NCBI RefSeq assembly: GCF_027107535.1
Contig: NZ_CP114283.1
Location: forward strand, 4,650,001 to 4,714,000
Length of the DNA: 64,000 bases
Direction of reading: 5' to 3'
Source: Streptomyces aurantiacus
GTDB lineage: Bacteria > Actinomycetota > Actinomycetes > Streptomycetales > Streptomycetaceae
In this document: positions 14,723 to 40,219 of the stretch, in pieces
Position numbering within the stretch: position 1 is the stretch's first letter
Layout: the number at the start of each line of letters is the position of its first letter
Notes under the pieces: generated by a model
What the model saw: only the letters and a program-made list of their open reading frames with translations
Told to the model about the DNA's origin: nothing
Database searches by the model: none
Position numbers and translations under genes: made by a program

Positions 14723-14732
14723 CCGCCCCCCC

Positions 14733-18787: not shown

Positions 18788-18834
18788 GCCTGTCGTCGCG
18801 TTGAGCATTCATCCCTGAAGGAGGAGAAGGACGC

Positions 18835-19821: not shown

Positions 19822-20391
19822 CCCGAAGCACCGGACGCAGAAAAGGGGTGCGGGCCGCCCGCCGGGCACGGGCACCAGCTGAACATGGACGACCTCGTGC
19901 GGCCGCCGGGCCGGGCCCCGTGGGCCACCGCGCGGTGGGCGGCCTCTGCGTCCGCGGTGAGCAGCGGGAAGCGCCGTCCGGCCCCGTGGGCGATCTCGCC
20001 GTCCGTACGCCGCCGTCCGCCAACGGCGGGGACCGCTCGGCCAGTTCGCCTCGCCCGCACCCCGGCGAGGCGAGTGAGCACCCCCCCGGGCACCTTGCTC
20101 AGTGCGTGCAGTGCGTGCAGTGCGTGCAGTGCGTCTGCCGGAAGCCTGCCGCCCACCCCCGAGGGCGGCTCCCTGCGAAGTCTCCGTGCCCGGGTACACC
20201 GCCGGTCACCTCCACGACTCACCTCCACGACCACGACCACGACCACGTTCCGCTTCCGCTTGCGCCTGCGGAGGAGCCGGGCTCCTCCGCAGGAGCGCGC
20301 GGGCGCGCGCGAGGTATCGCGGCCACGGCCCCCCTGCCCCCTCATCGCCTCCTCCAGCAGGTCTTGAGCAGCGGAGGCTACCTTTGCGGGC
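19822..20391. other. Gap with short tandem repeats
   Basis: About 570 bases with no convincing gene. It holds four copies of the 9-mer CAGTGCGTG (20100-20135, last copy one mismatch) and a hexameric ACGACC run near 20225-20250. The low-complexity, purine/pyrimidine-skewed stretch before 20391 contains the promoter of the RmlC-like gene. Confidence 0.5.
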
Positions 20392-21015: not shown

Positions 21016-21057
21016 ACCACCACGGGTCCGGCTCTCCTCCCCTTCCGGCCGGACCAC

Positions 21058-21091
21058 AGGCCCCGCGTGAGCGTGACGGCGCGCGGGGCCT
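21058..21091. terminator. Hairpin terminator after the RmlC-like gene
   Basis: Perfect 10-bp stem AGGCCCCGCG with its complement, 14-base loop, about 40 bases after the stop. Confidence 0.65.
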
Positions 21092-21237
21092 CGGTCGTGT
21101 CCGGGACAGCGCGTTTTATGAATCGGTCACGCCCTGAGCAGGACAAAGACACCCGCAGGAGCGGGAGCGACGCACTGTCCGCGTGAGGCGGCCGCGTGGG
21201 AGGTTCGAGGTCCGATGAAGAGACAAAGGGGGGCCGC

Positions 21238-22050: not shown

Positions 22051-22068
22051 CTGTCCAGGGAGGCAGCT

Positions 22069-24979: not shown

Positions 24980-25858
24980 TCAGCGGGATCCGTCCGGCCG
25001 GTCCGGGGTGAGCCGCGGCGGCGCCGTCCAGGCGTGACCGGCCGACTCGTAGGGGGTGGTCCCGGCCCAGGGGTCCTCGCCGTGGATGTCGAGGATCTGC
25101 TCGCGCAGCCACTGGTCGAAGGGGTGCTGCGACTCCGTCCAGCGCTTCCTGGTCCGCTCCGGGTCCGCGGTCTCGAAGTGCACGATCACGTGGTCCTGGT
25201 CGGGCCGCGGGTCGATGCGCAGCACCTCGCTGGTGATGCCCAGCCGTCGCCGGGACGCCTCGTACTCGCGCCGGCGCGGCCCCTGCAGCTCGGCGGTGAG
25301 CCGGTGCCAGGCCAGCGGCTTGCCGGGCCTGAGCGGCACGGTCCGGGTCACGGACCGGGTCCCTTCCACGGTGGGCCGGCGGCCCTTGCGCGGCGCCAGC
25401 ATGCGCATGCCGAGCGCGGCGAACATGTTGGACGACACGCCGTGCTCGAAGCGTTCGGCGATCCTGCCCTCCTCGTCGAAGCGCCAGATGACGATGCCGA
25501 CGGACAGGAACGAACGGCCGGTGGGCGCGATGCCGAGCAGTTCGCCCCGGTGGGTGCCGCGCCAGGTGTTGTGGATGACGACCAGGTCTTCGTGGGCGCT
25601 GATGTCCTCGATGGTGACGTGGAAGTCGGGGAACGCCTCACGCAGCCCGGCGATGGTGTACTTCACGCCCTCGGCGCCCTCGGGCGCGCCGGGCAGGCCC
25701 GCGTGGTCGACGATGTCCGGGCGGTAGAGCTCGTCCACGACCGAGGCGTCGCCCTGGTTGACGAACTCGGTGAAGACGCGCCGGATGGTCGCCTTGTTTC
25801 GTTCCTCGGCGCTTTCCCACAGTGTTCGCGCCAGGTTGGTGGTGGCCGCAGTGGTCAC
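24980..25858 (-). CDS. Two-domain SnoaL-like cyclase protein
   Basis: A 292-residue protein. Residues ~15-150 are a SnoaL/ester-cyclase domain (KATIRRVFTEFVNQGD, RPDIVDHAGLPGAPEG, FPDFHVTIEDISAHEDLVVI, GRSFLSVGIVIWRFDEEGRI). Residues ~165-265 form a second domain (PLRPGKPLAWHRLTAEL, RRLGITSEVLRIDP, HVIVHFETADPERTRKRW) that looks like a ferredoxin-like alpha+beta fold (dabb/DUF type); this is a structural guess. Two cyclase-type folds in one chain may act on a reactive polyketide. It is the last gene of the minus-strand ketide operon, 39 bp after the monooxygenase. Confidence 0.75.
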   Translation of the reverse strand: MTTAATTNLARTLWESAEERNKATIRRVFTEFVNQGDASVVDELYRPDIVDHAGLPGAPEGAEGVKYTIAGLREAFPDFHVTIEDISAHEDLVVIHNTWRGTHRGELLGIAPTGRSFLSVGIVIWRFDEEGRIAERFEHGVSSNMFAALGMRMLAPRKGRRPTVEGTRSVTRTVPLRPGKPLAWHRLTAELQGPRRREYEASRRRLGITSEVLRIDPRPDQDHVIVHFETADPERTRKRWTESQHPFDQWLREQILDIHGEDPWAGTTPYESAGHAWTAPPRLTPDRPDGSR

Positions 25859-25897: not shown

Positions 25898-27103
25898 TCA
25901 GGCTGCGGTGGCGGCGGCGGAGTTCCACCGCGTGCCGTAGGCGACGTGGTCACGTTCGGTGGACTGGAAGGTCTTGTTCCAGGTGAGTCCCATCACCCGG
26001 TCGCGCAGCCAGACGGCGGCCGGGTTGTGCAGGGAGCCGAGCACACCGATGCGGTGGGCCAGCAGCTGCATGGGGCGGGTGCGCTCCTGGCGCTCGGCCT
26101 CGTAGGCGCGCAGGGCCTGGTGGACGGTGACACCGGGCGAGACGAGGTGTCCGGCCAGGACGAGGCCGTCCTCGATGGCCTGGCAGGCGCCCTGCCCGAT
26201 GTTGAAGCTCATGGCGTGCGCGGCGTCGCCCAGGAGGGTGACCCGGCCCCGTCCCCAGACGGCGTCGGGTTTGCGGTCCCAGACGTCGCCGCGCAGGATG
26301 CTCTCCGGCACGGTGGCGTCCAGGATCTGCCGCACCGGGCCGCTCCAGCCGGCGTGCCGGGCGCGCAGCATGTCCAGGGTCTGCTCGGGCGTGCCCTCGT
26401 CGCGGCCGCCGGCGGGGCCGTCGGCGACGCTCATCCAGTGCATGACGCCGGGGGCGATGTCGTAGTACGTGAAGCGGGTCCCCGGCCCGAACAGGGCCTT
26501 GAAGGTGCCGGGCGGGAACTGGCCGGGGCTCATCTCGGCGTGGCCGCGCCAGGCGATGTAGCCGGTGTAGTCGGGAGGCTGGGGGCCGAGCAGCTGGGCG
26601 CGGACGGCGGAGCGGACGCCGTCGGCGCCGATCAGCAGGTCGCCGTCCTCGGAGGTGCCGTCGGCGAAGTGGAGGCTCACCCCGTCGAGGTGTTCGGTGT
26701 AGCCGGTGACCTCGGCGTCGGTGACGACGGGCGCGCGCACGGCGTCACGCAGGATGCCGTGCAGGTCCGAGCGGCCGATGGCGACCGTGGGCTGCCCGTA
26801 GCGCTCGACGAACTGGCCCACCGGCCACATGCCGATGGGCCGGCCGGTCGAGGTCGCGAAGTGGCACTCGGACTGGGCGGGGGCGATCGCGGCGACCTGG
26901 TCGGCGACGCCCAGATGGGCCAGGGCGAGCATGCCGTTGGTCCAGATGTGCAGTCCGGCGCCGCCGTCGCGCAGGGCGGGCGCGCGTTCGAAGACGACGG
27001 CGTCGATGCCCTGCTGCTGCAGGGCCAGGGCGGTGGCGATGCCGCCGATCCCGCCGCCGGCGATGAGAACGCGGCGTATGGGGCGAGGCGTTGGGGCGGA
27101 CAT
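25898..27103 (-). CDS. FAD-dependent monooxygenase (UbiH/salicylate-hydroxylase type)
   Basis: A 401-residue group A flavin monooxygenase. VLIAGGGIGGIATALALQQ binds the FAD ADP moiety, the DG motif lies in LLIGADGVRSAVR, and GDAAHAMSFNIGQGACQAIED binds FAD ribose. It probably hydroxylates or epoxidises the ketide product. It lies between the aldo/keto reductase (55-bp gap) and the SnoaL protein on the same strand. ATG 27103 has GGGAGAAAGAC upstream. The substrate is unknown. Confidence 0.9.
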   Translation of the reverse strand: MSAPTPRPIRRVLIAGGGIGGIATALALQQQGIDAVVFERAPALRDGGAGLHIWTNGMLALAHLGVADQVAAIAPAQSECHFATSTGRPIGMWPVGQFVERYGQPTVAIGRSDLHGILRDAVRAPVVTDAEVTGYTEHLDGVSLHFADGTSEDGDLLIGADGVRSAVRAQLLGPQPPDYTGYIAWRGHAEMSPGQFPPGTFKALFGPGTRFTYYDIAPGVMHWMSVADGPAGGRDEGTPEQTLDMLRARHAGWSGPVRQILDATVPESILRGDVWDRKPDAVWGRGRVTLLGDAAHAMSFNIGQGACQAIEDGLVLAGHLVSPGVTVHQALRAYEAERQERTRPMQLLAHRIGVLGSLHNPAAVWLRDRVMGLTWNKTFQSTERDHVAYGTRWNSAAATAA

Positions 27104-27158: not shown

Positions 27159-28160
27159 TCAGCGGGTCAGCGAGGCCATCTCCGCGTCGGGATAGCGGTT
27201 TCCGGCGGTGATGCCGTACGGGGCGATGGTGTCGATCGCCGCCAGGACGTCGGGGGACAGCTCGAGGCCGGCCGCGGAGACGTTCTCCTCGAGGTAGGTG
27301 CGCCGCTTGGTGCCGGGGATGGCGACGACGTCCTCGCCGCGGGAGAGCACCCAGGCGAGCGCGAGCCGCACGACGGTGGTGTCGGCCGCGGCGGCGAGAT
27401 TGCTGAGCTGGTCGACGACGGGCAGGTTCCGGCGGATGTTCTCGTCCTTGAAACGCGGGGCGATGCGCCGGAAGTCGAGGCCCTCGGGAATGTCGGAGGT
27501 GTCGCGGATCGTGCCGGTCAAAAACCCGCGGCCGAGCGGGCTGTAGGCCACGAATCCGATACCCAGCTCCCGCACGGTCTCCAGCACGCCGTTGACCTCG
27601 ACGTCCCGGGTGAACAGCGAGTACTCGGTCTGTACGGCGGTCAGCGGATGCACCGCGTGAGCACGCCGGATGGTCGCCGGCCCGGCTTCGGAGATCCCCA
27701 GGTGCTTCACGAGCCCGGCCTCGACGAGTTCGGCGAGCGCGCCGAAGCTCTCCTCCACGGGGACGTCGGGGTCGACCCGGTGCAGGTAGTAGAGGTCGAG
27801 GTGGTCGGTGCCCAGACGGCGCAGGGTGCCCTCGATCGACCGGCGGATGTAGTCGGGGCGGCCGTTGACCCGCCACGTCAGCCGGCCGTCGGGGCCGATC
27901 TCGTTGCCCACCTTGGAGGCGAGGACCACCTGGTCGCGGCGCCCGGCGACGGCACGGCCGATCAGCTCCTCGTTGGTGTGCGGGCCGTACATGTCGGCGG
28001 TGTCCAGCAAAGTGACACCGAGCTCCAGTGCCCGGTCGATGGTGGCCAGCGCCTCGGTCTCGTCCGCATCGCCGTAGCCGAACGTCATGCCCATGCAGCC
28101 CAGGCCCTGGGCCGGGACGTCCAGTCCGGGCGTCCCCAGCGTGCGGTGCTTGATTGCCAC
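27159..28160 (-). CDS. Aldo/keto reductase
   Basis: A 333-residue AKR of the general-stress/YajO-like type. Catalytic residues: Asp and Tyr in [11 protein letters not shown], Lys in VLASKVGN, His in LYYLHRVD; the cofactor loop is [17 protein letters not shown] 28160 has GGAGGC at good distance and opens VAIKHRTLG, the normal start of the family; a longer frame upstream is not needed. As the only clear keto-reducing enzyme inside the ketide operon it may reduce the polyketide, although the family is promiscuous. Confidence 0.88.
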
Positions 28161-28253: not shown

Positions 28254-29348
28254 TCAGGCCGGCGGCGGTGCCTGCCAGGTCAGCGACAGGCCGGTGTAGA
28301 CGTACCGGCTGGCCTCGATGCCGAGCAGCACGATCCGGTCGCCGGGCCGGATGCGCCCCGAGGTCCAGCCCGCGTCCAGCGACAGCGGCACCGCGGCCGA
28401 ACCGGTGGCTCCCACCTCGGCCAGGTTCTCCACGATCCGCCCCTCGAGCGCCTGGATGTCCTCGGCGGACAGCCCGGCGGCCCCGAACTCGTCGGCGAAG
28501 TAGTCGGCGTTGCCCTCCGGCAGCACGATCGCGTCGAACTCCCCGAGCGCCCGGCCGTCCTTGCGGGCCATCTCCTGGATCGCCCGGACGAACACCTGCG
28601 GCCCGAACGTGGTCGTGCCGGCCACGTCGATCTTCATCTGGATCAGCTGGCGCCGGCGCAGCTGCTCCGCCTGCGGCACGTCCGTACCGCCCCCGATGAT
28701 CTCCATGCCGGGCTTGCGCAGGCCCCCCACGCACGCGTTGACGAAGGCGAAGTTGTCCGCTGACGCCTCTGCGGGCTCGGCCCGCATCACCACGGCCCCC
28801 GCCCCGTCACCGAACGTGTACAGCGTCAGCCGGTCCCGCATCCGCACGCGCTCCGGGTCCTTGCCCAGGAAGTGCGGTGCCAGCACCGGCGATCCGGCCT
28901 CGCTGCCCACCACGAGGGCGGTGCGCGCCGTCCCGTCGGACAGCTGCCGCCGGGCCAGGTCCAGCGCCTGCACCCAGCCCGCGCAGGCCCCGCGGATCTC
29001 GATCGCGGCCACGCTCTCCAGCCCCAAATAGTGCTGCAGGGTGGTGGCGACATTGGGCAGGGTGTACTCCGGCGTCGCCGTGCACACCACGATCAGGTCG
29101 AGCTCGCCGGGCTCCACCCCGGCCCGTTCCAGGGCCTGGCGGGAGGCACGCTCGGCCATCCGGCTGTTGTTGATGCGGTGCTCGCCCGTGACCGGGTCGA
29201 TCATCCAGTACCGGGTCTTGACCTGGATGCCCTCGAGGATGTCGTCCGGCACCGGCCCGACGAACTTCTCCAGCGTGGCGTTGTCCAGCGGCTCGCCGGG
29301 CACATAGGCGCCGGTGGACAGGATCTTCACGTCGTACGCGGTGGTCAT
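28254..29348 (-). CDS. KSIII-like protein with incomplete active site
   Basis: A 364-residue thiolase-fold protein of the FabH/KSIII family. The nucleophile Cys122 is present (EIRGACAGWVQAL) and the fold motifs are clear (VVCTATPEYTLPN, LYTFGDGAGAVVM). The usual second and third catalytic residues are not: the PHQAN-type His segment reads VLPEGNADYF, and the GNTSAASIPL Asn segment reads GATGSAAVPL. Such proteins often act as acyltransferases or prime a type II PKS with an unusual starter. The ATG overlaps the stop of the fused KS-CLF gene (ATGA), so the two are probably made together. Confidence 0.85.
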   Translation of the reverse strand: MTTAYDVKILSTGAYVPGEPLDNATLEKFVGPVPDDILEGIQVKTRYWMIDPVTGEHRINNSRMAERASRQALERAGVEPGELDLIVVCTATPEYTLPNVATTLQHYLGLESVAAIEIRGACAGWVQALDLARRQLSDGTARTALVVGSEAGSPVLAPHFLGKDPERVRMRDRLTLYTFGDGAGAVVMRAEPAEASADNFAFVNACVGGLRKPGMEIIGGGTDVPQAEQLRRRQLIQMKIDVAGTTTFGPQVFVRAIQEMARKDGRALGEFDAIVLPEGNADYFADEFGAAGLSAEDIQALEGRIVENLAEVGATGSAAVPLSLDAGWTSGRIRPGDRIVLLGIEASRYVYTGLSLTWQAPPPA

Positions 29349-31711
29349 CGGCCGGACTCCGTTACGGGCAGGGGGGCGGGGGACAGGACGAGCGAGGTGT
29401 GGGTGCCGCCGAGGGACGAGCTGTTGATCAGGACCGGGCGGCGGGTCCCGGCCTGCCGCCAGGCGCCGACGGCCAGGACCGCCGACAGGTGGGCACCCGC
29501 GCCGATCGGCTCGCCGAGCACCCGCTTGGGAGTCTCGAACCGCACCCGGTCCAGATCGAACACCCGCTCCGCGGCGGCCTGTTCGGGACGGTCGGCGGCA
29601 GCCAGACCCGCCGCGTTCGCCCAGAGGGCAGAGATGTCGTGCGGCCGGAGCCCGGTACGGTCCAGGGCCGCGCGCATCGCCCGCTCCACGCCGTCACCGG
29701 ACGGGTCCCAGCGGCCGATGCCGCAGGCGTCCGACGCGCTCGCATGCCCCAGGACCACGGCGTGGATGGGGGCGCCGCGCCGCTGCGCACTGGAGCGGCG
29801 CTCAAGGACCAGCGCGATACCGGCCTCGGCGAGCGTGTACCGGCGCCCGGCCGCCGAACCGAACAGCGGGATGCTGCGGTACGCCTCCAGCACGGCCGGC
29901 GAGAACGCCTCCACCGCCGGCACCAGCAGCCGCTCGGCACGCCCGGCACGCAGCATGTCGTACGCGACACCCAGCGCGGCAGCACCCGCCGCGTGCCCCG
30001 AAGTCAGCGTCGACGTCGGCCCCTTGGTGCCCAGAGCCATCGCGACATGGCCGGCCGCGCCGTTGAACACGGTGTTCGGGAACACGCCCGGGTTCGCGGC
30101 CCGTGCGCCCTCCGACAGCACCGGGACGGTGAAGCGTTCGCTGCTCTCCATCGGCCCGATCCCGGTGCCGAGCACCACCCCGGTCGCGGCCACCGCAGCC
30201 TCGTCGCCGTCCGCCCCCGCGGCGGCCAGGGCGGCCCGGCAGGAGGCGACGGCGAGCTGGGAGACCTTGTCCATCCGCCGGCGCTCCCGTGCGGTGCCGG
30301 CGGCCGAGCGGTCGAACTCCGCCCGGGCCAGGCGCAGTCCGTCTTCTGCCACCCCCTGCCGGCGCCCGCCCGCATAGGCGTCCCAGAGCGCCTCGGCCCC
30401 CTCGCCGGCCGAGGTGATCACGCCGAACCCGGTCACCACGATCTCGTCCGGGCCGATCCCCGACGCCGGCGCTCCGGGCCCGCCGGGGCGGGCGAAGGCG
30501 AGGGTGGCGTTGGCACCGGCGAACCCGAAGTTGTTGGACAGCGCGGTGTCGAGGACCATCGGGCGGCCCGTCCCCGCCACCGGGTCGAGACCGCACTGCG
30601 GATCAAGACCGGCACAGGTCGCGGTCGGCGGCGCCACCTGGTCGCGCAGGGCCAGCACCGTGACGATGCCCTCCACCGCACCGGCCGCGCCGAGCAGATG
30701 GCCGATCATCGACTTGGTGCTGGACAGGGCGGTCCTCTCGGCCGCCGCGCCGAGCGCGGCACGCACCGCGTTGCTCTCCGCGGAGTCGTTCTTCGGAGTG
30801 CCGGTGCCGTGCCCGTTGACGTACCGGATGTCGTCGGGGACCAGTCCCGAGGAGGCAAGGGCCGCACGGATCGCCCGGGCCGCTCCCTCACCCTCGGGGT
30901 GCGGCGCCGTCGGGTGGTAGCCGTCGGCGGACAGGCCGTAGCCGAGCAGCTCGGCGATGACCGGCGCACCGGTGCGCTCGGCCGTCTGCCGCGACAGCAG
31001 CAGGAGCATCCCGCTGCCCTCGCCCAGGGACAGACCGCACCGGTCCTTGGAGTAGGGGGCGGCCGGTTCCGGGGAGAGCGACCACAGGCTGCTGAACCCG
31101 GCGAACGCCGACTCGGTGAAGGCATCACTGCCGCCGACGAGCATCGCGTCGGCCGCCCCCGACCGGATCACCTCCAGGGCGTGGGCGAGCGCATGCGCGC
31201 TGGAGGCACAGGCGGTGTTGACGCTCAGTGCCGGGCCCTTGAGGCCGAAGGCCGCCGACAGCACCTCCGCGCCGGCGTGCGGCGGCACGTAGGTGTAGCG
31301 GTGCCAGTCGGGCGCGTGGCCCTCCTGCACCTGGCGCAGGGCCAGTTCGGCACTGCGCCAGCCGGCGTGGCAGGTGGCGTACGCGACGCCCCAGCGCTCG
31401 GCCGGGATGTCCGCGCCGACCCGGAGCCCGGAGGAGGCCATGGCCTCCTCGGCGGCGGTCAGCGCGAAGTCGAGGGACAGATCACGGGTGTCGGAGCCCG
31501 GCGCGTAGTCGTAACCCGGCTTGCAGGGTTCGGTGACCTCGCCGCCCACGCTCGTCTGGTACTGGTCCATGGGCAGGCGGCGCACGGGCGCGATCGCCAC
31601 CTGTCCCGCGCGCACCCCCTCCCACAGGGCCTCGGCCGAACCGCCGTGCGGGGTGATCGCACCCACTGCGGCGATCACGACGCCGACGGCCGGATCAGGA
31701 ACGTCAGTCAT
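29345..31711 (-). CDS. Fused ketosynthase - chain-length-factor-like protein
   Basis: A 788-residue protein with two thiolase-fold units. Unit 1 (about 1-405) is an active-looking KS: nucleophile C168 in SVNTACASSAHA, His in NGHGTGTPKND, and KSMIGHLLGAAG. Unit 2 (about 418-780) begins IVVTGFGVITSAGEG and lacks the Cys: its nucleophile segment is LTSGHAAGAAAL, with His where CLFs carry Gln, and the His motif is also lost (LWANAAGLAAAD). KS and CLF are normally separate proteins, so the fusion is unusual. ATG 31711 opens MTDVPDPAVG. It should use the nearby ACP. Confidence 0.88.
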   Translation of the reverse strand: MTDVPDPAVGVVIAAVGAITPHGGSAEALWEGVRAGQVAIAPVRRLPMDQYQTSVGGEVTEPCKPGYDYAPGSDTRDLSLDFALTAAEEAMASSGLRVGADIPAERWGVAYATCHAGWRSAELALRQVQEGHAPDWHRYTYVPPHAGAEVLSAAFGLKGPALSVNTACASSAHALAHALEVIRSGAADAMLVGGSDAFTESAFAGFSSLWSLSPEPAAPYSKDRCGLSLGEGSGMLLLLSRQTAERTGAPVIAELLGYGLSADGYHPTAPHPEGEGAARAIRAALASSGLVPDDIRYVNGHGTGTPKNDSAESNAVRAALGAAAERTALSSTKSMIGHLLGAAGAVEGIVTVLALRDQVAPPTATCAGLDPQCGLDPVAGTGRPMVLDTALSNNFGFAGANATLAFARPGGPGAPASGIGPDEIVVTGFGVITSAGEGAEALWDAYAGGRRQGVAEDGLRLARAEFDRSAAGTARERRRMDKVSQLAVASCRAALAAAGADGDEAAVAATGVVLGTGIGPMESSERFTVPVLSEGARAANPGVFPNTVFNGAAGHVAMALGTKGPTSTLTSGHAAGAAALGVAYDMLRAGRAERLLVPAVEAFSPAVLEAYRSIPLFGSAAGRRYTLAEAGIALVLERRSSAQRRGAPIHAVVLGHASASDACGIGRWDPSGDGVERAMRAALDRTGLRPHDISALWANAAGLAAADRPEQAAAERVFDLDRVRFETPKRVLGEPIGAGAHLSAVLAVGAWRQAGTRRPVLINSSSLGGTHTSLVLSPAPLPVTESGR

Positions 31712-31749
31712 GCCTCTGCTTCCTTCTGTGGACGGGGCTGCTCGGCCGC

Positions 31750-33084
31750 TCACACGGGCCTGGCCAGGGTCAGCGCCACGGCCTGCCCCTCGATGCCCCG
31801 GGCCAGCGCCATCGCATGCGAGGGCCTGGACTCCCGGGCACTGCCGCGGACATGGTCCAGGGCGCACACCGGGTCGGGGTTGTCGAGGTTGAGCGTCGCG
31901 GGCACCACACCGTGGTGCAGGGCCAGCGCGGCCACGGCGGCGTTCAGCGCACCGCCGCCGCCCACCAGGTGGCCGGTCTGCGGCTTGGGCGTGCTGACCG
32001 GCACCGACCGGGCGGCCGTACCCAGCGCGGTACGCAGGGCGACGGCCTCACCGGCGTCCCCCAGACGGGTCCCGGAGCCGTCCGAGGCGATGTAGCCGAG
32101 GTCGCCGGCGGCCAGCCGGGCGTCCTCGAGCGAGCGCCGCACCGCCCGGGCCAGACCGCGGCCCTCGGGGTCCGCCGCCGGCGGCGTCCGGGCGTCGTGG
32201 CCGGCGCCGTAGCCGGTCACCTCGGCATAGATGCGGGCGCCGCGCCGCAGTGCCGCCTGCTTCTCCTCCAGCACCAGCAGCGCGGCCCCTTCGCCGGGCA
32301 GCCCGCCGCTGCGGTCCCGGTCGTAGGGCCGGTAGGCCCCCTGTCCCCGGTCGTTACGGGTGCTCAGGATGCCCAGCCGGTCCAGCAGCGTCATCGACCA
32401 CCAGCTGGTGGCGTCGTCGTAGCCGCCCGCGATCGCCACGTCCGCGTCCCCGCGGCGCACCGCACGCATGGCCCGGCCGATCGCGGTGGCACCCGCGTCC
32501 GCGTAGCCCGCGAAGAAGGTGCTGGAACCCCGGATGCCGTAGGTCTGCGAGATGTTGAACACCGCGCCGGCCGGCAGCCCTTCGACGAAGAACAAGGGCG
32601 GCATGATGACGTCGCCGCGCCGGGCGAGGTGTTCCATGTCGGCGGTGCCGTCCGGGCGGCGGATGACCTTCAGCTCGTCGATGAGCTGCTCCATGCGGCC
32701 CAGCGACTTGTTGCCGCCGAGATACAGGCCGGCCCGGTGGCCGAGTTCGTCGCCGCCGGCCTGGTTGTGCGGCAGGCCCGCGTCGTCGAGGGCGAGCCGG
32801 GCGGCGGCCAGCGCGAGGCGGTCCCCGCGGTTGACGGTGCGCAGCTGGCGCCTGGTGGCGAACCGGGTGGCGTCGAAGTCGGCGATCTCGCCGCCGAGCC
32901 GGGTCTGCAGCGGCTGCGGGTCGTAGGCCCGGATCGGGCCGATCCCGCACTCGCCGGCCACCAGCGCCTTCCAGTTGGCCTCGGGGCCTTCGCCCAGCGC
33001 GGTCAGCAGGCCGATGCCACTGACGACGACCTGGCGTCCGGTGCCGCTCATCGGCGCTCCTGCGTGTCGCTGTCGGGTCGTCAT
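31750..33084 (-). CDS. CLF-like ketosynthase partner (KS-beta)
   Basis: About 433-444 residues. KS fold motifs VVVSGIGLLTALGEGPEANW, GGYDDATSW, LPGEGAALLVLEEK and PQTGHLVGGGGALNAA are present. The nucleophile is missing (STFFAGYADAGATAIG, Tyr at the Cys/Gln position) and the HGTGT motif is degraded to SDGSGTRLGD. This is what is expected of a chain-length factor pairing with the KS encoded just before it. Two starts are possible: ATG 33084, overlapping the KS stop (ATGA), and ATG 33051, with GGAG six bases upstream. The overlap supports 1:1 synthesis. Confidence 0.88.
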   Translation of the reverse strand: MTTRQRHAGAPMSGTGRQVVVSGIGLLTALGEGPEANWKALVAGECGIGPIRAYDPQPLQTRLGGEIADFDATRFATRRQLRTVNRGDRLALAAARLALDDAGLPHNQAGGDELGHRAGLYLGGNKSLGRMEQLIDELKVIRRPDGTADMEHLARRGDVIMPPLFFVEGLPAGAVFNISQTYGIRGSSTFFAGYADAGATAIGRAMRAVRRGDADVAIAGGYDDATSWWSMTLLDRLGILSTRNDRGQGAYRPYDRDRSGGLPGEGAALLVLEEKQAALRRGARIYAEVTGYGAGHDARTPPAADPEGRGLARAVRRSLEDARLAAGDLGYIASDGSGTRLGDAGEAVALRTALGTAARSVPVSTPKPQTGHLVGGGGALNAAVAALALHHGVVPATLNLDNPDPVCALDHVRGSARESRPSHAMALARGIEGQAVALTLARPV

Positions 33085-34352
33085 CGCTTCTCCTCGTAGC
33101 GGCCCACGACCAGCCCGACGTTGGTGCCGCCGAAGGCGAAGGCGTTGACGAGGGCGTGCCGTACCTCCTGCCTGCGTGCCGTGTTCGGCACGAAGTCGAG
33201 GCCGAGCCGGCGGTCGGGCGTCTCCTGGTTGATGGTCGGCGGCACGACGCCGTGGTTGATCGCACCGATCGCGGTGAACAGGCTCAACGCCGCGGACGCC
33301 GCGGTGAGATGACCGGTCATCGACTTCGGCGAGCTGATCAGCAGCCGGTCCGCGGCGTCACCGAACACCTTCTTGATCGCGGTGGTCTCCGACAGGTCGT
33401 TGCCCGGGGTGCTGGTGCCGTGCGCCACGACGTAGTCGATGTCGGCCGGCTCGAGGCCGGCATCCGCGATCGACGCCTCGATGGACTCGATGGCACCGCT
33501 GCCGTCCGGCGGCGAGTCGGTCATCCGCCAGGCGTTCAGGCTGGTGCCGTACCCCAGGAGTTCGGCGAGAATGTGCGCCCCGCGGTCCCGGGCCGCCTCC
33601 AGCTCCTCCAGGACGAGGACGACACCGCCCTCCCCGAGGACGAACCCGGAGCGCTTGTCGTCGAAGGGCCGGCTGGCTTGCTGCGGAGCGTCGTTGTAGT
33701 CCTTCGTCAGCGCCCCCAGCAGGCCGAAGCACAGCACATCGAGCCACGTCGTCAGCGAGTCGTAGCCGCCCGCGAGCATCAGCGTGGCATCGCCCTCCTG
33801 CAGGCTGCGGAAGGCCTCCCCGACAGCGTGCCCGGAGGCCGAGCAGGCGGTGGACACACCCAGCATCGGGCCGGTCGCATCCAGCATCCGGGCCATCGCT
33901 GCGGAGGCGATGTTCTGGCTGTAGGCCAGAGCGTCGGAGGGCGCGTAGACGGAGAACGCGTCGTCCCGGCCGGTCCGCTCGCGCAGCGCCCCGACATCCA
34001 CCAGCCACTGCAGGTCCGGCCGGTCCACACACGCGCCCATGGCCACACCCATGTCCGCGCCGTCGTACGTCTTCTTGTCCACCCCCGCGTCGCGCAGCGC
34101 CTCCCACGCCGCGCCCACACCGAAGGTGCCCGGCCGCAGCAGATGGCGCAGGCCGACCGAGCCGGGGACCGCGTCGTCGAGCCTAAAGCCCTTGACCTCA
34201 CCGGCGATCGTCACGTCGAAACCGGTGGTGTCGATCGTCGTCAGCCGGCCGACTCCGCTGCGCCCTGCGGCCAGTGCCTGCCACGTGCTCGGCGCGTCGT
34301 TGCCCAGCGGCGTGACGGCGCCCACCCCGGTGACGACCACCCTGCGGCTCAT
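33081..34352 (-). CDS. Beta-ketoacyl-ACP synthase II-type ketosynthase (KS-alpha)
   Basis: A 423-residue FabF-type condensing enzyme with a complete active site: Cys170 in GVSTACSASGHA, His in VVAHGTSTPGND, the second His in KSMTGHLTAASAA, and the C-terminal NAFAFGGTNVGL. It performs decarboxylative Claisen condensation between malonyl-ACP and the growing chain. It is coupled to the CLF-like gene by ATGA overlap and preceded by ACP and PPTase genes. Compared with typical aromatic KS-alpha proteins it looks closer to FabF-like enzymes. What sets chain length and reduction state is unknown. Confidence 0.93.
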   Translation of the reverse strand: MSRRVVVTGVGAVTPLGNDAPSTWQALAAGRSGVGRLTTIDTTGFDVTIAGEVKGFRLDDAVPGSVGLRHLLRPGTFGVGAAWEALRDAGVDKKTYDGADMGVAMGACVDRPDLQWLVDVGALRERTGRDDAFSVYAPSDALAYSQNIASAAMARMLDATGPMLGVSTACSASGHAVGEAFRSLQEGDATLMLAGGYDSLTTWLDVLCFGLLGALTKDYNDAPQQASRPFDDKRSGFVLGEGGVVLVLEELEAARDRGAHILAELLGYGTSLNAWRMTDSPPDGSGAIESIEASIADAGLEPADIDYVVAHGTSTPGNDLSETTAIKKVFGDAADRLLISSPKSMTGHLTAASAALSLFTAIGAINHGVVPPTINQETPDRRLGLDFVPNTARRQEVRHALVNAFAFGGTNVGLVVGRYEEKR

Positions 34353-34377: not shown

Positions 34378-34812
34378 TCATGCCGTTCGTCTCCTTCGGT
34401 CGTTGTGTGTGGCGGCGGCTGGTGCGGTGTGCGGCGCCGCGGACTGGCACACCATGACGGCGTGTGCGACGGCAAGACCTCCGCTGTGGCTCAGGGAGAG
34501 GTCGATGTAGTACATGCCGAGGGACTGGGCAACCGCTTCGACCTCGCCGTACAGCCGCACGTGGGGCCGTCCGGCGCGGTCGTTGACGACCTCGACGTCC
34601 GTCCACTCCATGCGCGGGCCCATGCCGGTCCCGAGGCTTTTCAGCACGGCCTCCTTGGCGGCCCACCGGCCGGCGAGGTGCTCACCGACCCGCTTGCGCC
34701 GGTAGCAGTAGGCCAGCTCGCGAGCGGTGAACACCCGCTCCCGCAGCTCTGGTTGGGAGATCATCAGCTCCTCTACGCGAGAGACCTCGGCCAGATCCAT
34801 GCCGGTCCGCAC
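34378..34812 (-). CDS. AcpS-type 4'-phosphopantetheinyl transferase
   Basis: A 144-residue holo-ACP synthase. GTG 34812 opens VRTGMDLAEVSRVEEL, matching the family start (Mg-binding Asp). The second signature reads AGRWAAKEAVLKSLGTGMG. The SLSHSGGLAVAHAVM strand is near the C terminus. It transfers phosphopantetheine from CoA to the ACP gene 46 bp upstream, and lies 25 bp before the KS gene. A cluster-specific AcpS suggests the unusual ACP is not served by housekeeping enzymes. The C-terminal ~20 residues are a Thr/Ala/Arg tail. Confidence 0.93.
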   Translation of the reverse strand: MRTGMDLAEVSRVEELMISQPELRERVFTARELAYCYRRKRVGEHLAGRWAAKEAVLKSLGTGMGPRMEWTDVEVVNDRAGRPHVRLYGEVEAVAQSLGMYYIDLSLSHSGGLAVAHAVMVCQSAAPHTAPAAATHNDRRRRTA

Positions 34813-34858: not shown

Positions 34859-35272
34859 TCACGCCGCGGCCGCGGCGAGGGCGGCACGCTCGGTCACCAG
34901 ATCCGTCAGGTTCTGCACGGTGAACAGGGACAGCACCTCGTCCGCCGTGAGCTTGCCGGCCAGTGCCTGCACGTCGATCTGCGGCAGCGACTTCTTCAGC
35001 TGGGCCAGCCCGACCTCGTTGATGATGTCGTCAGCGTCGGCGAACTCCTCGTCGGGTATCCCGCCCTGGAGCAGCTCGGCGATGTCCGACACCTTGATCT
35101 TCACGTCCGCCGCCTTCTCGATGCGGAACAGGACGTCCAGCAGGTCGATGGACTCGGCGTCCAGATCGCCCAGCAGCGTGGCCTCGGGCACGGCCTCCTC
35201 GACATCTATGCCGAGCGCGTCGGCGACCGCTTCCTGGACGATGGTGCCGAAGCCTTTACCGTCGTACGACAT
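34859..35272 (-). CDS. Long-form acyl carrier protein
   Basis: A 137-residue ACP with the pantetheine Ser in LLGDLDAESIDLLDVLFRIE (Ser near residue 42). Normal ACPs are 75-90 residues. Here an extra segment after helix 3 (GGIPDEEFADADDIINEVGL, then LPQIDVQALAGKLTADEVLSLFTVQNL) enlarges the domain, a form seen in some discrete-ACP FAS/PKS systems. ATG 35272 has AAGGAC at close distance. It is the only ACP in the ketide operon and so should serve both KS/CLF sets and the KSIII-like protein. Confidence 0.93.
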   Translation of the reverse strand: MSYDGKGFGTIVQEAVADALGIDVEEAVPEATLLGDLDAESIDLLDVLFRIEKAADVKIKVSDIAELLQGGIPDEEFADADDIINEVGLAQLKKSLPQIDVQALAGKLTADEVLSLFTVQNLTDLVTERAALAAAAA

Positions 35273-35343: not shown

Positions 35344-36348
35344 TCACGACGCCACCGGCTCCTGCCGCCTCTCCGGGGTCACTTCGGCGTGCAGCGCCGT
35401 GAGCCGGCGCGGGTCTCCGGTGGAGCGGGTGCGGGCCTGACCGAGGGTGCGGCGGGCGAGCCCGCTCAGCACCCGGCCGGGGCCGATCTCGGTGTACGCG
35501 TCCACCGGGCGCCGGGCGGCCGTGTGCAGCACCTCGACCCAGCGGACGGGTCCGGTGAGCTGACGCCGCAGCAGTTGCCTGGCCTCCTCGCCCGAGCGGA
35601 CATGAGCGCCGGAGACCGAACTGATCACCGGCAGCACGGGGTCGGCGAACGCGTGGGCGGCGAGCGCCTCGGTGAACTCCTCCACCACCGGCGCCATCAG
35701 CGAGCAGTGGAAGGGCGCCCCCACGTCCAGCGGCACCACCTGGTCGGCGCCGGCGGCCAGCGCCGCCTTGCCGGCCACCTCGACGGCGTACGCGTGCCCC
35801 GAGATGACCGTCTGCAGCGGCTCGTTGTAGTTCGCGACCTGCACCAGACCCAGCCCCAGGCCCTCGGCGCTGCCGCAGGCGGCCAGCACCTGGGCCGCGG
35901 GCAGGCCCAGTACGGCCGCCATCGCGCCGGGCACCTCGCGGGCCACCTCGCCCATCAGCGCCCCGCGCAGCCGCACCAGTTGCAGGGCCGACTCCAGGGA
36001 CAGCACCCCGGCGGCCACCAGCGCCGGGTACTCACCCAGGCTGTGGCCCGCGGCCGCCGCCGGCCGGTAGCCGGCGGACCGCAGCACTTCCCACACGGCG
36101 AGGCTGGTGGCGGCGATCGCGGGCTGGGTGATCTCGGTACGGCCGAGCTCCTGGGCACTGCCGCTCACACAGATCCGCGACAGCGGCAGACCCAGGATCT
36201 CGTCGGCCCGGTCGAACAGCCGCCGGGCCAGGGGATAGGTGTCGAGGAGGTGCCGGGCCATGCCGGGCCGCTGCGACCCCTGCCCGGGGAACATGGCCAG
36301 GCAGCCGGTCGTCGCAGCGACGCTGCCGGGTCCGGTCCAACCGGTCAT
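35344..36348 (-). CDS. fabD: Malonyl-CoA:ACP acyltransferase
   Basis: A 334-residue FabD-family enzyme loading malonyl units on the ACP. FPGQGSQRPGM is near the start, the nucleophile Ser is in AGHSLGEYPALVAAG, a conserved Arg in RLRGALMG, and the catalytic His in VGAPFHCSLM. The ATG at 36348 overlaps the stop of the carboxylase epsilon gene, linking malonyl-CoA formation and use in one operon. It is convergent with nothing and runs into the ACP gene 71 bp downstream. Confidence 0.93.
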   Translation of the reverse strand: MTGWTGPGSVAATTGCLAMFPGQGSQRPGMARHLLDTYPLARRLFDRADEILGLPLSRICVSGSAQELGRTEITQPAIAATSLAVWEVLRSAGYRPAAAAGHSLGEYPALVAAGVLSLESALQLVRLRGALMGEVAREVPGAMAAVLGLPAAQVLAACGSAEGLGLGLVQVANYNEPLQTVISGHAYAVEVAGKAALAAGADQVVPLDVGAPFHCSLMAPVVEEFTEALAAHAFADPVLPVISSVSGAHVRSGEEARQLLRRQLTGPVRWVEVLHTAARRPVDAYTEIGPGRVLSGLARRTLGQARTRSTGDPRRLTALHAEVTPERRQEPVAS

Positions 36349-36584
36349 CGGGTACTCCTTTCGTGGGTCGGTGCGGGGGTGCGCTGCCAGCCGGCCGCGT
36401 CCGGTGCGTCGGGCTGCGGGGGGTGCCAGTCGGCCGGCCGGCCCCAGCGGCCCCTGGCGGGCGGCGGATCCGGCTCGCCGGCGTTGCCGCGCAACGCGGC
36501 GAACACGGCCACCAGCCCCGCCAGTTCCTCCGGCGTGGGGTTGCCCCGCAGCACCCTCAGCGAGACGGCCTCCGGCGCGCTCAC
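36345..36584 (-). CDS. Acyl-CoA carboxylase epsilon subunit
   Basis: A 79-residue protein, VSAPEAVSLRVLRGNPTPEELAGLVAVFAALRG-type start followed by a Pro/Trp-rich tail (RGRWGRPADWHPP). This is the actinobacterial AccE/PccE pattern: short helix LRVxRGxPTPEELAAL plus W-rich tail. Epsilon binds and activates the beta subunit of acetyl/propionyl-CoA carboxylase. GTG 36584 overlaps the stop of the beta gene (GTGA), and its stop overlaps the fabD start, so all three are coupled. Confidence 0.9.
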   Translation of the reverse strand: MSAPEAVSLRVLRGNPTPEELAGLVAVFAALRGNAGEPDPPPARGRWGRPADWHPPQPDAPDAAGWQRTPAPTHERSTR

Positions 36585-38218
36585 AGCGGCTCGTTGCCGT
36601 GCTTGCGGACGGGCTGCCGGGACCGCTTGGTGCGCAGCATGTCCAGGGACTTGATCAGCACCCGCCGGGTGTCCGCCGGGTCGATGACGTCGTCGACGTG
36701 TCCGCGCTGCGCGGCGACGAAGGGGTTCATCAGCTGCTCGGTGTATTCGGCGACCAGCTCCCGGCGCAGCTTCTCCGGCTCCGCCGCCGTGCTCAGCTGC
36801 CGGCGGAAGATGATGTTGGCCGCGCCGTCGGCGCCCATCACGGCCGTCTGGTTGGACGGCCAGGCGAACGACAGGTCGGAGCCGATCGACTTGGAGTCCA
36901 TGACGATGTACGCGCCGCCGAACGCCTTGCGCAGGATCACCTGCACCCGCGGCACGGTCGCCTCGCAGTACGCGTACAGGAGCTTCGCGCCGCGCCGGAT
37001 GATCGCGTTGTGCTCCTGGTCGGTGCCGGGCATGAACCCCGGCACGTCGACCAGCGTCACGAGCGGGATGTTGAACGCGTCGCAGGTGCGCACGAACCGG
37101 GCGGCCTTCTCCGAGGAGTCGATGTCCAGCACCCCCGCCATGGCGGCGGGCTGATTGCCCACCACACCGACCGTGTGGCCGTCCAGGCGGGCCAGGGCAC
37201 ACACGATGTTCGGCGCCCAGCTCTCCTGGATCTCCAGGTAGTTGCCGTCGTCGACGATGTGACCGATGACCGTTCTGATGTCGTACGGCGTCCGGTCGTC
37301 GACCGGCACCACCCGCAGCAGTTCCTCACAGCGCCGGTTCGGATCGTCCAGGGGCCGGGTGTACGGCGCCGTCTCGGCGTTGTTCGACGGCAGATAGGAG
37401 AGCAGTTCCCGGATGCCCTCGAAGCAGGACTCCTCGTCCGGGGCCACGAAACTCGCCACACCGGTGCGGGTGCCGTGGGTGTACGCGCCGCCGAGCTCCT
37501 CGTGCGTGACCTTCTCACCGGTCACCGCGTGCACCACGTCGGGCCCGGTGATGAACATGTTGGCCATGCCCTCGACCATGAACGTGAAGTCGGTCAGCGC
37601 CGGCGAGTAGACGGCGCCGCCCGCGCAGGAGCCGAGCACGACACTGATCTGCGGCACCACACCCGAGGCCCGGACGTTACGGGCGAAGAGCTTGCCGAAG
37701 CCGGCCAGGGCATCGATGCCCTCCTGGATCCGTGCACCGCCGCCGTCGTTGAGGCCGATGACCGGGGCACCGACGGAGTCGGCGAAGTCGAGCAGCTGGT
37801 GGATCTTCGCGGCGAACGTCGCGCCCAGCGCGCCGCCGCGGATCCGGGCGTCGTGAGCGAACACGAAGACCGTACGGCCGTCGACCTCGCCCCAGCCCGT
37901 GATCACCCCGTCGCCCTCGGGATGCGAGTCCTCCATGCCGAAGCCCACCGCCCGGTGCTCGGCGAACAGCCCCAGCTCGGTGAACGTGCCCGGGTCGATC
38001 AGCGCCTCGATGCGCTGGCGGGCCAGCAGCTTGCCCTTGGAGAGATGGCGGGCATCGGCTTCCGGGTCGTGCCCGAAGTGGGCCTGCGCCCTGCGGATGG
38101 TGAGATCGTCGGCCAGTTCGGTCATCGTGGATGCGCGCACCGGTGTCGGTGGCCGCGGTTCCGTGTCGGTCCTGCCGAAGTCCGGCAGTACGGCCTGGGG
38201 AGTGTCCGGAGGCGTCAT
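36581..38218 (-). CDS. Acyl-CoA carboxylase beta subunit (carboxyltransferase)
   Basis: A 545-residue biotin-dependent carboxyltransferase (AccD/PccB type), transferring CO2 from biotin to acetyl- or propionyl-CoA. N-lobe motifs include RIEALIDPGTFTELG and the acyl-binding GGGARIQEGIDALAGFG. C-lobe motifs include VDVPGFMPGTDQEH and the biotin oxyanion region KAFGGAYIVMDSKSIGSD. The residue that discriminates acetyl from propionyl cannot be settled without alignment. ATG 38218 has GAAGGAG about 10 bases upstream. No alpha (biotin carboxylase) gene is in the window, so a housekeeping one must partner. Confidence 0.95.
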   Translation of the reverse strand: MTPPDTPQAVLPDFGRTDTEPRPPTPVRASTMTELADDLTIRRAQAHFGHDPEADARHLSKGKLLARQRIEALIDPGTFTELGLFAEHRAVGFGMEDSHPEGDGVITGWGEVDGRTVFVFAHDARIRGGALGATFAAKIHQLLDFADSVGAPVIGLNDGGGARIQEGIDALAGFGKLFARNVRASGVVPQISVVLGSCAGGAVYSPALTDFTFMVEGMANMFITGPDVVHAVTGEKVTHEELGGAYTHGTRTGVASFVAPDEESCFEGIRELLSYLPSNNAETAPYTRPLDDPNRRCEELLRVVPVDDRTPYDIRTVIGHIVDDGNYLEIQESWAPNIVCALARLDGHTVGVVGNQPAAMAGVLDIDSSEKAARFVRTCDAFNIPLVTLVDVPGFMPGTDQEHNAIIRRGAKLLYAYCEATVPRVQVILRKAFGGAYIVMDSKSIGSDLSFAWPSNQTAVMGADGAANIIFRRQLSTAAEPEKLRRELVAEYTEQLMNPFVAAQRGHVDDVIDPADTRRVLIKSLDMLRTKRSRQPVRKHGNEPL

Positions 38219-38338: not shown

Positions 38339-40219
38339 CTAGATGGACAGACGGACGGCTTCCTCCAGGGCGCCCGCCCGGCCCGAGTCCAGCTCCTGGG
38401 CGAAACTGCGCTGCAGGCCGTCCAGCCGGTAGCGGGTGGGCAGGTCCGCCGCCGCGGGCTCGGCCACACTCAGGAAGTGGGCCTCCACCAGCTGCTCACA
38501 GGCGTCCTCGACGGTGGCGAAGTCCTTGCCGAGCACCGGGCAGGCCAGATGGGCGTCGAACTCGGGCACCGGCAGATGGGCCAGACAGCGAAGCGCCTCA
38601 CGGGCATCCTCGGGCAGCGCGTTGTACGACGCCGTGAAACTGGCCCGCACACTCAGCGAACTGTGCGCCAGCTCGTCCAGCCGCCGGCCCTCGTCACTGA
38701 GCCGCTCCGCATAGCGGCCCAGCGACCAGTGGGGACGGGTGTTGAGCCGTGCGGCCGCGGCACGCAGGGCAAGAGGCAGACCCCCGCAGTACCGTGCGAT
38801 CGCGGCCGCCGCGACCGGCTCCCGGTTGACCCGCTCGGGGCCCAGCAACCGCGCCAGCAGCCGCACACTGTGACCGTGCGGCAGATCCGGCAGCTGCAGC
38901 ACACGGGCGCCGAGCGGCGCACTGAGCCGGACCCTGCTGGTGATCAGCACCGCGGTGTCCGCACTGCCCGGCAGCAGCGGCTGCACCTGCTCGTCATCGA
39001 CCGCGTCGTCCAGGGTGAGCAGCAGATGGCGCCCGGCCAGCGCCAGCCGGTACACCTCGGCACGCTCATCCGGGTCGGCCGGAAGCCGGTCGGGATCCGT
39101 ACCCAGCACCCGCAGCAGCCGGCCCAGCACCGCGTGCGGGTCCGCCGGCCGGGCACCGTTGCCCCGCAGCGCCGCGTACAACTGCCCGTCGGGAAAAGCG
39201 GACTGCAGCCGGTGCCCCAGGCGCACGGCCAGTGCCGTCTTGCCGACACCGCCGCCGCCCACCAGCACGGCCGCCGGCGGCTGCGAGCCGGTGGGCTGGG
39301 TCAGGGTCCGCTGGATCACCTCGAGTTCCCGTTCACGCCCCGTGAAGTCGGGCAGGTCGAGCGGGAGCATCTGCGGAGTGGGCTGGGGGCGGGCCACAAC
39401 CTGGAACGAGCCGACGCCGTGCGTGACGGCGCCCTGCGGGTCGCCGCCGCGCTCGGGCAGCGGCACGGGATCGGCCGCCTCCCCCCGCAGGATCGTCTCG
39501 TACAGCCGCTGCAGCCGCCGCGACGGATCCGTGCCGAGCTCCTTGGCGATCAGCCGGCGCATCGACTGGTAGTACTCCAGGGCATCGACGCTGCGCCCCT
39601 CCAGGTAGAGCGCGAGCATCAGACGCTCGCACAGCTGCTCGGAGAGCGGATCGGTCAGCAGCGCCGCGCGCAGCTCCGAGAGGACGGCGCCGGGACGCTC
39701 CAGACGGATCTCGGCGTCCGCCCACTGACTGAGCGCCTCGTGGTGCAGCTGCCGCAGCGTCTCCCTCAGCCGGGCCGCCCAGTCGCTCTGCATACCGCCG
39801 AGTGCGTCACCCCGCCACATGTGCAGCGCCTGCTGCAGCAGCATGCTGCGCTCCTGGTCGCCGAGGCCCTCGTGCTGGGCGCTCTTGAGCAGCCGGCGAA
39901 ACCGCACCAGGTCCACCGTGCCGGGATCGGCCGAAACCTGATAGCCGGCCGGGGTCCGGACCAGACCGACCGGCTCGGGCAGCCCGGCCGAAGCGAAGGC
40001 CAGCGCCCGGCGCAACCGGGTGATGTAGGTGTGCACGACGTTGCGGACCCCCGCGGGCGGCCGGTCGCCCCACACCCGGTCGACAAGGGACTCCAGCGGC
40101 ACCGGCCGTTCCGGATCGACCAGCAGGATGCCGAGGATGCTGCGTTGCCGTGCGGGGCCGAGATCGGCCAGAGCGCTGCCCGTCCAGAGTTCTATCGATC
40201 CCAGTATCCGGAGCTCCAT
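38339..40219 (-). CDS. Large SARP regulator with NB-ARC ATPase domain
   Basis: A 626-residue AfsR-like regulator. Residues ~1-95 are the OmpR-like DNA-binding domain (MELRILGSIELWTG), ~100-245 the BTAD domain (MLLQQALHMWRGDALGG, LEYYQSMRRLIAKELGTDP). An NB-ARC/STAND ATPase follows, with P-loop VGGGGVGKTALAV near 322 and Walker B LLLTLDDAVDD. It lacks the C-terminal TPR array of full AfsR (about 990 residues). It lies directly upstream of the carboxylase-KS operon on the same strand (120-bp gap), so it is the likely activator of that operon. Confidence 0.92.
   Translation of the reverse strand: MELRILGSIELWTGSALADLGPARQRSILGILLVDPERPVPLESLVDRVWGDRPPAGVRNVVHTYITRLRRALAFASAGLPEPVGLVRTPAGYQVSADPGTVDLVRFRRLLKSAQHEGLGDQERSMLLQQALHMWRGDALGGMQSDWAARLRETLRQLHHEALSQWADAEIRLERPGAVLSELRAALLTDPLSEQLCERLMLALYLEGRSVDALEYYQSMRRLIAKELGTDPSRRLQRLYETILRGEAADPVPLPERGGDPQGAVTHGVGSFQVVARPQPTPQMLPLDLPDFTGRERELEVIQRTLTQPTGSQPPAAVLVGGGGVGKTALAVRLGHRLQSAFPDGQLYAALRGNGARPADPHAVLGRLLRVLGTDPDRLPADPDERAEVYRLALAGRHLLLTLDDAVDDEQVQPLLPGSADTAVLITSRVRLSAPLGARVLQLPDLPHGHSVRLLARLLGPERVNREPVAAAAIARYCGGLPLALRAAAARLNTRPHWSLGRYAERLSDEGRRLDELAHSSLSVRASFTASYNALPEDAREALRCLAHLPVPEFDAHLACPVLGKDFATVEDACEQLVEAHFLSVAEPAAADLPTRYRLDGLQRSFAQELDSGRAGALEEAVRLSI

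Follow-up and report, generated by a model that had tools for sequence, protein, structure and literature searches.

What does a single biosynthetic operon do with two condensing units, one of them made as a single polypeptide? The question is raised by the window analysed here, namely, 64,000 nucleotides of Streptomyces aurantiacus DNA (C2:4650001-4714000, within a 9.9 Mb genome of two contigs), where a separate ketosynthase (KS) and a partner resembling a chain length factor (CLF) are encoded beside a fused KS-CLF protein. An initial annotation had proposed that the two units build two chains or extend one chain in two phases. We favour, with a rough probability of one half, a type II polyketide synthase (PKS) in which two condensing units of different ancestry would act in turn on one chain bound to an acyl carrier protein (ACP). 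Judging from sequence comparisons, many bacteria have kept this set, which probably assembles a single chain stepwise.

The presence of two condensing units in one operon, one of them fused, was confirmed: the KS, partner and fused open reading frames (ORFs) were recovered at the expected places (Table 1), with high third-position GC in the GC-frame and ORF lists, and with Pfam ketoacyl-synthase domains. They belong to a minus-strand row that reads acyl-CoA carboxylase beta subunit, acyltransferase (AT), ACP, AcpS, KS, CLF-like partner, fused KS-CLF, KSIII-like protein, aldo-keto reductase, FAD-dependent monooxygenase and SnoaL-like cyclase, and for the operon inside the window the domain scan found one AT and one ACP. 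The fused and KSIII-like genes overlap by four bases (29345-29348), as do the KS and partner genes if the partner starts at 33084. Comparison with G166, a genome of the same genus (G and L numbers are our handles for genomes and loci), gave dN/dS values of 0.17 for the KS, 0.19 for the partner, 0.18 for the KSIII-like protein and, within the fused gene, 0.24 for the KS half and 0.34 for the CLF half, which places all of these genes under constraint. It also held, as initially annotated, that each unit consists of one active half, with Cys-His-Lys-His, and one half that has lost the Cys.

The fused protein was aligned with its relatives in 83 rows longer than 700 aa, of which 80 are distinct, the window included. 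Each Pfam domain matched two stretches of it, giving two KS-type domain sets; its Pfam matches are solely of the thiolase fold, and it is not part of a multidomain Pfa protein. The linker between the halves has 16 residues (range 13-44, median 16 over the 83 rows). Whereas the N half keeps Cys-His-Lys-His in 83/83 rows, the C half of the window reads His-Asn-Lys-Glu at these positions. Across the rows, the Cys position of the C half holds His in 54, Gly in 18, Cys in five, Asn in two, and Arg, Ala, Glu and Thr in one each; the five Cys rows, all from the loci termed family 2 below, may be alignment slips, and the catalytic His residues are gone in nearly all rows. The two halves of the chain would pair with each other. 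An artefact or frameshift was rejected as the origin of the gene, since the frame is open in all 83 rows. A full-length fused ORF was missing from seven of the 80 loci that surround the best 80 of 238 relatives (L091, L098, L100, L104, L109, L115 and L127); L091 and L100 lie on short contigs, and a single S. diastatochromogenes assembly accounts for both L098 and L127, as two copies.

The separate proteins were compared in 59 rows. The KS keeps Cys in 59, the first His in 58, Lys in 57 and the second His in 56. In the window, its partner has Ala at the Cys position, preceded by Tyr, and Asp for the first His, while Lys and the second His are kept. The initial annotation had read Tyr or His in place of the CLF Gln, which was exact for the His of the fused protein and one residue off for the Tyr; realignment with the KS puts Ala there, and Tyr as the replacement of the nucleophile was rejected. 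Written as the residue before Cys, Cys, His, Lys and His, the partner motifs are TAHKH (40 rows), YADKH (7), TSHKH (3), GADKH, AAHKH and TAHKE (2 each), and TAHSH, GPDGH and YA-SR (1 each), so that both His and Lys are kept in 45 of the 59. Asp for the first His is confined to nine readable window-type rows (eight genomes) and L088. The rows are not all independent, since G077 and L052, and likewise G123 and L062, are the same records, and L098 and L127 lie in one genome. Near the C-terminus, the FGGTN loop of the partner is replaced by an ARGLEGQ-like stretch resembling SRGLMGS of aromatic CLFs, RGL being common to both. These residues set the two nucleophile-less halves apart: His and Lys survive in most rows of the separate one, and the fused one has lost its His residues in nearly all.

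The KSIII-like protein has Cys in 44 and Gly in 15 of 59 rows, Pro for the FabH His in 59/59, and Ala (52) or Asn (7) at the FabH Asn position. With the His replaced throughout and the Cys lost in 15 rows, it is not a normal FabH that primes or joins chains. Its match to the StlD/DarB model is weak (97.5 bits, cut-off 450).

To place the four halves we used two trees, a quick one of 140 rows (20 rows each of fused N halves, fused C halves, separate KSs and CLF-like partners, and 7 each of aromatic KS-alpha and KS-beta) and a careful one of 90 rows, which left out two very long HR198 CLF rows and 48 others. The aromatic and highly reducing (HR) reference rows are from genus genomes, labelled by motif and neighbours and not taken from named clusters, and the trees hold no PfaC sequence. 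In the quick tree each group stood on one side of a branch, with SH-aLRT support of 97 for fused N halves, 91 for fused C halves, and 100 for both KS and CLF-like proteins, and the two aromatic clades closed at 100 without any window half. In the careful tree all fused N halves formed one clade (99/93) and all fused C halves another (98/95), which points to one old fusion. A grouping of the fused C halves with HR CLFs was not established (79/18, careful tree), and the fused N halves grouped with four KS rows labelled HR by neighbourhood at a support of 94, the fork being open (quick tree). A clade uniting the separate partner with aromatic KS-beta was not rejected (p-AU 0.4), and a clade of the separate partner with the fused C half was borderline rejected (p-AU 0.049). 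By the phylogeny that the initial annotation had called for, all four halves thus lie outside the clades of aromatic KS-alpha and KS-beta, with the fused ones grouped among other fused proteins.

With a free-standing KS, a nucleophile-less partner, an AT and an ACP in one operon, the system has the make-up of a type II (dissociated) PKS, which would condense iteratively on the ACP. As in actinorhodin-type aromatic PKSs, there are a KS, a CLF and an ACP, and the separate partner has the RGL motif; unlike them, the window halves fall in separate clades and have Ala and His, and not Gln or Glu, at the CLF site, where the seven aromatic CLFs have Gln (3) or Glu (4), followed in the common alignment by Asp, Lys and Arg in 7/7. 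General scans of the neighbouring genes named no aromatase, and SnoaL-like cyclases are present. All three window proteins match FabF models below the TIGR03150 equivalog cut-off (483.4, 400.3 and 307.6 against 493.75), and they also remain under that of the cispentacin enzyme AmcF (NF058662; 269.3, 171.2 and 173.1 against 325), while the fused protein reaches 88.3 bits against 900 for PigJ (NF053555). Identity as an aromatic type II PKS, FabF, PigJ or AmcF was therefore rejected, on clades and CLF residue and on these scores.

Several known systems share parts of this arrangement; statements cited by PMC number here and below follow excerpts of the papers. The ishigamide pair Iga11-Iga12 and the aryl polyene pair ApeO-ApeC also combine a dissociated KS with a nucleophile-less partner and an ACP. 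Aryl polyene clusters also carry two KS systems (PMC8358021); there a FabB-like homodimer serves as the second KS and the CLF is of about half-size, whereas here one unit is fused. In polyunsaturated fatty acid (PUFA) synthases, the KS of PfaA acts first and the KS-CLF didomain of PfaC carries out the final elongation, so that there, too, a pathway combines KS and CLF in one chain with a separate KS (PMC12895367); Pfa proteins are multidomain, however, and the fused protein of the window is free-standing. For a free-standing fused KS-CLF the literature gave just the PUFA synthase didomains, which is weak evidence of absence, subscription papers being mostly outside the coverage, and the available parts of papers on limocrocin and cispentacin held nothing bearing on the fusion. 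KS/CLF/CLF and similar triads have been noted as uncharacterised (McBride 2023, PMC10132072), and a 'triad-like' type II PKS architecture was reported in Dictyobacter vulcani (Hsu 2025, PMC12391972). The excerpts describe three clustered condensing enzymes, as here, and do not describe a fused protein, active-site states or a product. These triads may well be of the same family as the window set; our relative L071 is a Tengunoibacter of the Dictyobacteraceae, the family to which we take Dictyobacter to belong. Among solved structures, PDB 9s5h was the best match of the fused-protein profile: chain B aligned to the KS half (469.8 bits), and chain C matched in two stretches (369.9 bits in all), the better one aligned to the CLF half. 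These are two separate chains, while the window halves share one; with the window CLF half alone, 9s5h C (79.4 bits) came behind 1j3n (115.5) and chain B (105.6).

Thresholds of our choosing sorted the 80 loci into three types: window-type (7), family 2 (21) and other (52). The 52 other loci contain the fused gene (52), a ketoreductase (KR; 47), the CLF-like gene (47), hotdog A and hotdog B (46 each), KS, KSIII-like protein and ACP (45 each), AT (38) and AcpS (27), where the misses include short contigs and divergent copies. KR in 47/52 loci, usually with two dehydratases, would make them highly reducing type II PKSs; the catalytic His of hotdog B is kept in 47/47 rows. A KR and a FabA-like dehydratase pair are accordingly shared by HR type II PKSs and most relatives, and the window is without KR. 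The seven window-type loci all have the KS and the CLF-like gene, and within the fetched flanks none has a KR or hotdog A and one has hotdog B. In family 2 (L105-L131, G001, G051 and G155, from Bacillota, Chloroflexota and actinomycetes), the fused gene is accompanied by a KR, an ACP and a FabZ of its own and by a GcvT-like protein; some Streptomyces members have an SbnB-type gene. The fused protein of G001 (L043 11382-13850, minus strand) scores 353.8 with the AmcF model, above the equivalog cut-off, so automatic annotation may label it as a cispentacin enzyme. In L198 (G035), two KS-like and two CLF-like ORFs, one CLF match being weak, lie by two KR-like ORFs, apparently as two unfused sets.

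The branch of the window thus departs from the reducing pattern, with no KR ortholog in the window and a divergent dehydratase pair found only upstream. No KR ortholog was found in its own genome, where the best-scoring of 39 matches to short-chain dehydrogenases/reductases (SDRs) is 42% identical and none exceeds 44%, while the cassette KRs of most relative loci are 57-91% identical to the KR query; a KR moved elsewhere was rejected on this basis. The stretch upstream of the window (L151, C2:4630001-4650000) encodes an AMP-binding ligase and a 517 aa enzyme of the 4-methylideneimidazole-5-one (MIO) type, together with two hotdog proteins resembling FabA and a PP-binding carrier protein. It also has genes for chorismate mutase (type I), DAHP synthase (class II) and prephenate dehydratase. 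Best matches of 29% (hotdog A) and 37% (hotdog B) mark the hotdog proteins as divergent, and their presence rejects a loss of the dehydratases in this branch. The single ACP of the initial annotation holds inside the window, but a second one lies about 11 kb before its start. The MIO enzyme, an AdmH-like phenylalanine aminomutase/lyase, matches AdmH (3unv) with 748 bits, the next entries being tyrosine aminomutases at about 342 bits, and has orthologs at 85-92% in G166, G199, G200, G201, G202 and G203. In Streptacidiphilus fuscans and Mycobacterium sp. 4858, the AdmH-like enzyme, AMP ligase, second ACP and hotdog pair directly follow the PKS genes. The stretches read of these two show no deoxysugar block, and no reductase gene was seen in the Mycobacterium stretch with a simple GC-rule gene list, which missed its hotdog genes. 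For andrimid, AdmH supplies beta-phenylalanine, yet it works as a lyase at high temperature, and EncP acts as a lyase for enterocin (PMC3903478), so that sequence cannot tell cinnamate from beta-phenylalanine as the product here.

The fused KS-CLF family is widespread but sparse. Full-length relatives at 60% identity or more occur in 6/199 genus genomes (own, G166, G077, G074, G101 and G123), and others at 39-42%, some of them partial matches, in five (G001, G051, G080, G147 and G155). Among 396 phylum genomes, the window's own among them, two gave a match to the fused protein and three to the separate KS. A scan of a species-genome collection, however, gave the 238 relatives mentioned, the best 80 of which fall in Actinomycetota, Cyanobacteriota (one cyanobacterium), Chloroflexota and Bacillota, and 19 plasmid records have one place covering at least 80% of the fused query, the first 16 listed being Streptomyces plasmids at 59.7-85.4% identity. 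The description of the fusion as rare is therefore apt for its frequency and not for its spread. At E <= 1e-95 the separate KS is found in 12/392 genus genomes (own, G074, G077, G101, G123, G166 and six more), and in 12/12 the CLF-like gene and the fused coding sequence adjoin, the latter in pieces in the S. diastatochromogenes assembly. In S. diastatochromogenes ATCC 21481 (L098, L127) a window-type cluster lies near both ends of a 7.72 Mb contig, possibly in terminal repeats. The KS/fused cassette is often plasmid-borne, and in one case (L213, on the NBC_00335 plasmid) the genes linked to a KR-bearing relative are annotated as thermostable hemolysin, AMP-binding protein, TauD/TfdA dioxygenase and cupin.

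How, then, might the two units divide the work? On the favoured reading, the separate pair would start the chain or make its first extension(s), and the fused unit would then extend it further and set its length, both working in turn on a single chain held by the operon ACP. In the window's branch the starter would probably be an aryl unit derived from phenylalanine: the AdmH-like enzyme would produce it, the AMP ligase activate it and the second ACP carry it. The product would afterwards be tailored and glycosylated. The sequences themselves show the gene order, the catalytic residues, the clades, the co-occurrence of the genes and the linked starter and sugar genes; the single chain, the identity of the starter and the order of the units are what we infer from these data. 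The single AT and the degenerate KSIII-like protein argue for one chain, the fused sequence adjoining in 12/12 sampled genus genomes indicates that the two units are kept together, and the order is suggested by PfaA and PfaC and by the two-KS aryl polyene systems.

Some observations weigh against this reading. Family 2 has the fused gene and no separate pair, so the fused unit can work alone; the window operon is without KR, though two dehydratase-like genes remain upstream; and G481, a small genome of another family, has a 47% match to the separate KS and no fused relative at threshold, although that match may be a housekeeping FabF. In window-type G077 no AdmH-like ortholog was found at threshold (best 38%), so that either the aryl starter is not universal in this branch or the G077 draft is incomplete; G074, G101 and G123 also have only 37-38% matches. 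The order of action, pair first and then fused unit, is suggested by analogy.

What the separate pair once did bears on a possible, if unlikely, alternative, in which the ancestral CLF-like subunit was a KSQ-like decarboxylase of malonyl-ACP that made an acetyl starter, a function which the window's branch would have abandoned on gaining the aryl starter. Such subunits would be expected to decarboxylate from the behaviour of KSQ domains and of KS Cys mutants, and the 45 rows with both His, Lys, and Ala or Ser for Cys (TAHKH, TSHKH and AAHKH) would suit it, as would the three rows short of one residue (TAHKE and TAHSH), the change of the first His to Asp described above, and a KSIII-like protein unable to prime like FabH. 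Yet the ARGLEGQ-like stretch resembles aromatic CLFs, L088 has the Asp and retains KR, and G077 has the Asp without an AdmH-like ortholog at threshold. Loss of the partner His in the branch that gained the aryl starter block fits a former priming role, though G077 and L088 fit it poorly and the lineages are few. Taking the favoured reading further, it is tempting to speculate, although we regard this as rather unlikely, that an ancient module of KS, half-alive CLF-like subunit and fused KS-CLF splits chain starting from length setting, and that in the window lineage a reducing system became KR-less and phenylalanine-primed, its starter partner losing the last useful catalytic residue.

It is improbable, in turn, that each unit builds a chain of its own, to be joined later by, for example, the KSIII-like protein or an acyltransferase. 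There are two complete condensing units, two ACPs if the upstream one is counted, a weak likeness of the KSIII-like protein to StlD/DarB, and an acyltransferase-3 gene; but AT and ACP are single in the operon, the KSIII-like protein has lost the FabH His and Asn in the window and the Cys elsewhere, and the acyltransferase-3 gene is listed only for the window and G166 among eight window-type sets. Two chains thus find little support, and one chain extended in two phases would fit the sequences better. There is also only a slim chance that all elongation is left to the fused unit, with the separate pair surviving as a relic or in a structural role, as family 2 and the further catalytic residue lost by the window partner could suggest, given that the separate KS keeps Cys-His-Lys-His, that dN/dS is 0.17 and 0.19, and that the KS/CLF-like pair is conserved across phyla. 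Ordinary FabF duplication or a mis-assembled gene has practically no chance left: the three proteins do match FabF models, but below the equivalog cut-off and in separate clades, and the relatives, with the fusion open in 80 distinct sequences, refute mis-assembly. Under the favoured reading, the two jobs of a type II synthase, controlling chain length and choosing the starter, would come naturally dissected in this two-unit system. A fused KS-CLF could ease the expression of partners that need co-production, and the window's branch may illustrate how a reducing system can turn KR-less and take on a new starter.

Table 1. Features of the window (window positions) and the evidence for them.
Feature	Position	Strand	Evidence or remark
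Separate active KS, 423 aa, Cys-His-Lys-His	33081..34352	-	alignment, own clade in tree
Separate CLF-like partner, 444 aa	31750..33084	-	Ala at Cys position; own clade in tree
Fused KS-CLF, 788 aa, start 31711	29345..31711	-	domain scan, alignment, relatives
KSIII-like protein	28254..29348	-	Cys kept; FabH His to Pro, FabH Asn to Ala
Operon ACP	34859..35272	-	Ser present; Ser in 59/59 rows
AcpS-type holo-ACP synthase	34378..34812	-	domain scans
FabD-like malonyl-ACP acyltransferase (AT)	35344..36348	-	295.2 bits vs cut-off 260.9
Acyl-CoA carboxylase beta subunit	36581..38125	-	in 6/8 window-type sets
Large regulator of the Streptomyces antibiotic regulatory protein (SARP) type (BTAD, NB-ARC)	38339..40219	-	in 7/8 window-type sets
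Aldo-keto reductase	27159..28160	-	domain scan, longer start used in scan
FAD-dependent monooxygenase	25898..27103	-	domain scan
SnoaL-like cyclase	24980..25858	-	domain scan
Acyltransferase-3 gene	23252-24451		domain scan
Whole linked glycosylation block	9182..22977	mixed	domain scans, conservation across window-type sets
rmlB	9182-10192	-	
rmlA	10296-11192	-	
Major facilitator superfamily exporter	11957-13441	+	
Glycosyltransferase	13484-14722	+	
SnoaL-like gene (glycosylation block)	14868-15251	-	
SnoaL-like gene (glycosylation block)	15480-15950	+	
NDP-hexose 2,3-dehydratase	16007-17395	+	
Epimerase-type SDR	17783-18787	+	
Aldo-keto reductase (glycosylation block)	18835-19821	+	
3,5-epimerase	20392-21015	+	
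Small SARP	21238-22050	+	
EryCIII-like gene	22075-22977	+	
YcaO/TOMM-type gene and small ORF (pair)	6524-8749 and 8812-9072	- and -	

Beside the glycosylation block, the window also encodes a YcaO/TOMM-type protein of the SagD family (264.1 bits against 219.25), which is adjoined by a small Cys-containing ORF. Homologs in G202 and G077 repeat an FTFCAQPGP-like unit, as in a multi-core precursor of a ribosomally synthesised and post-translationally modified peptide, and the pair lies close to rmlB in several window-type clusters.

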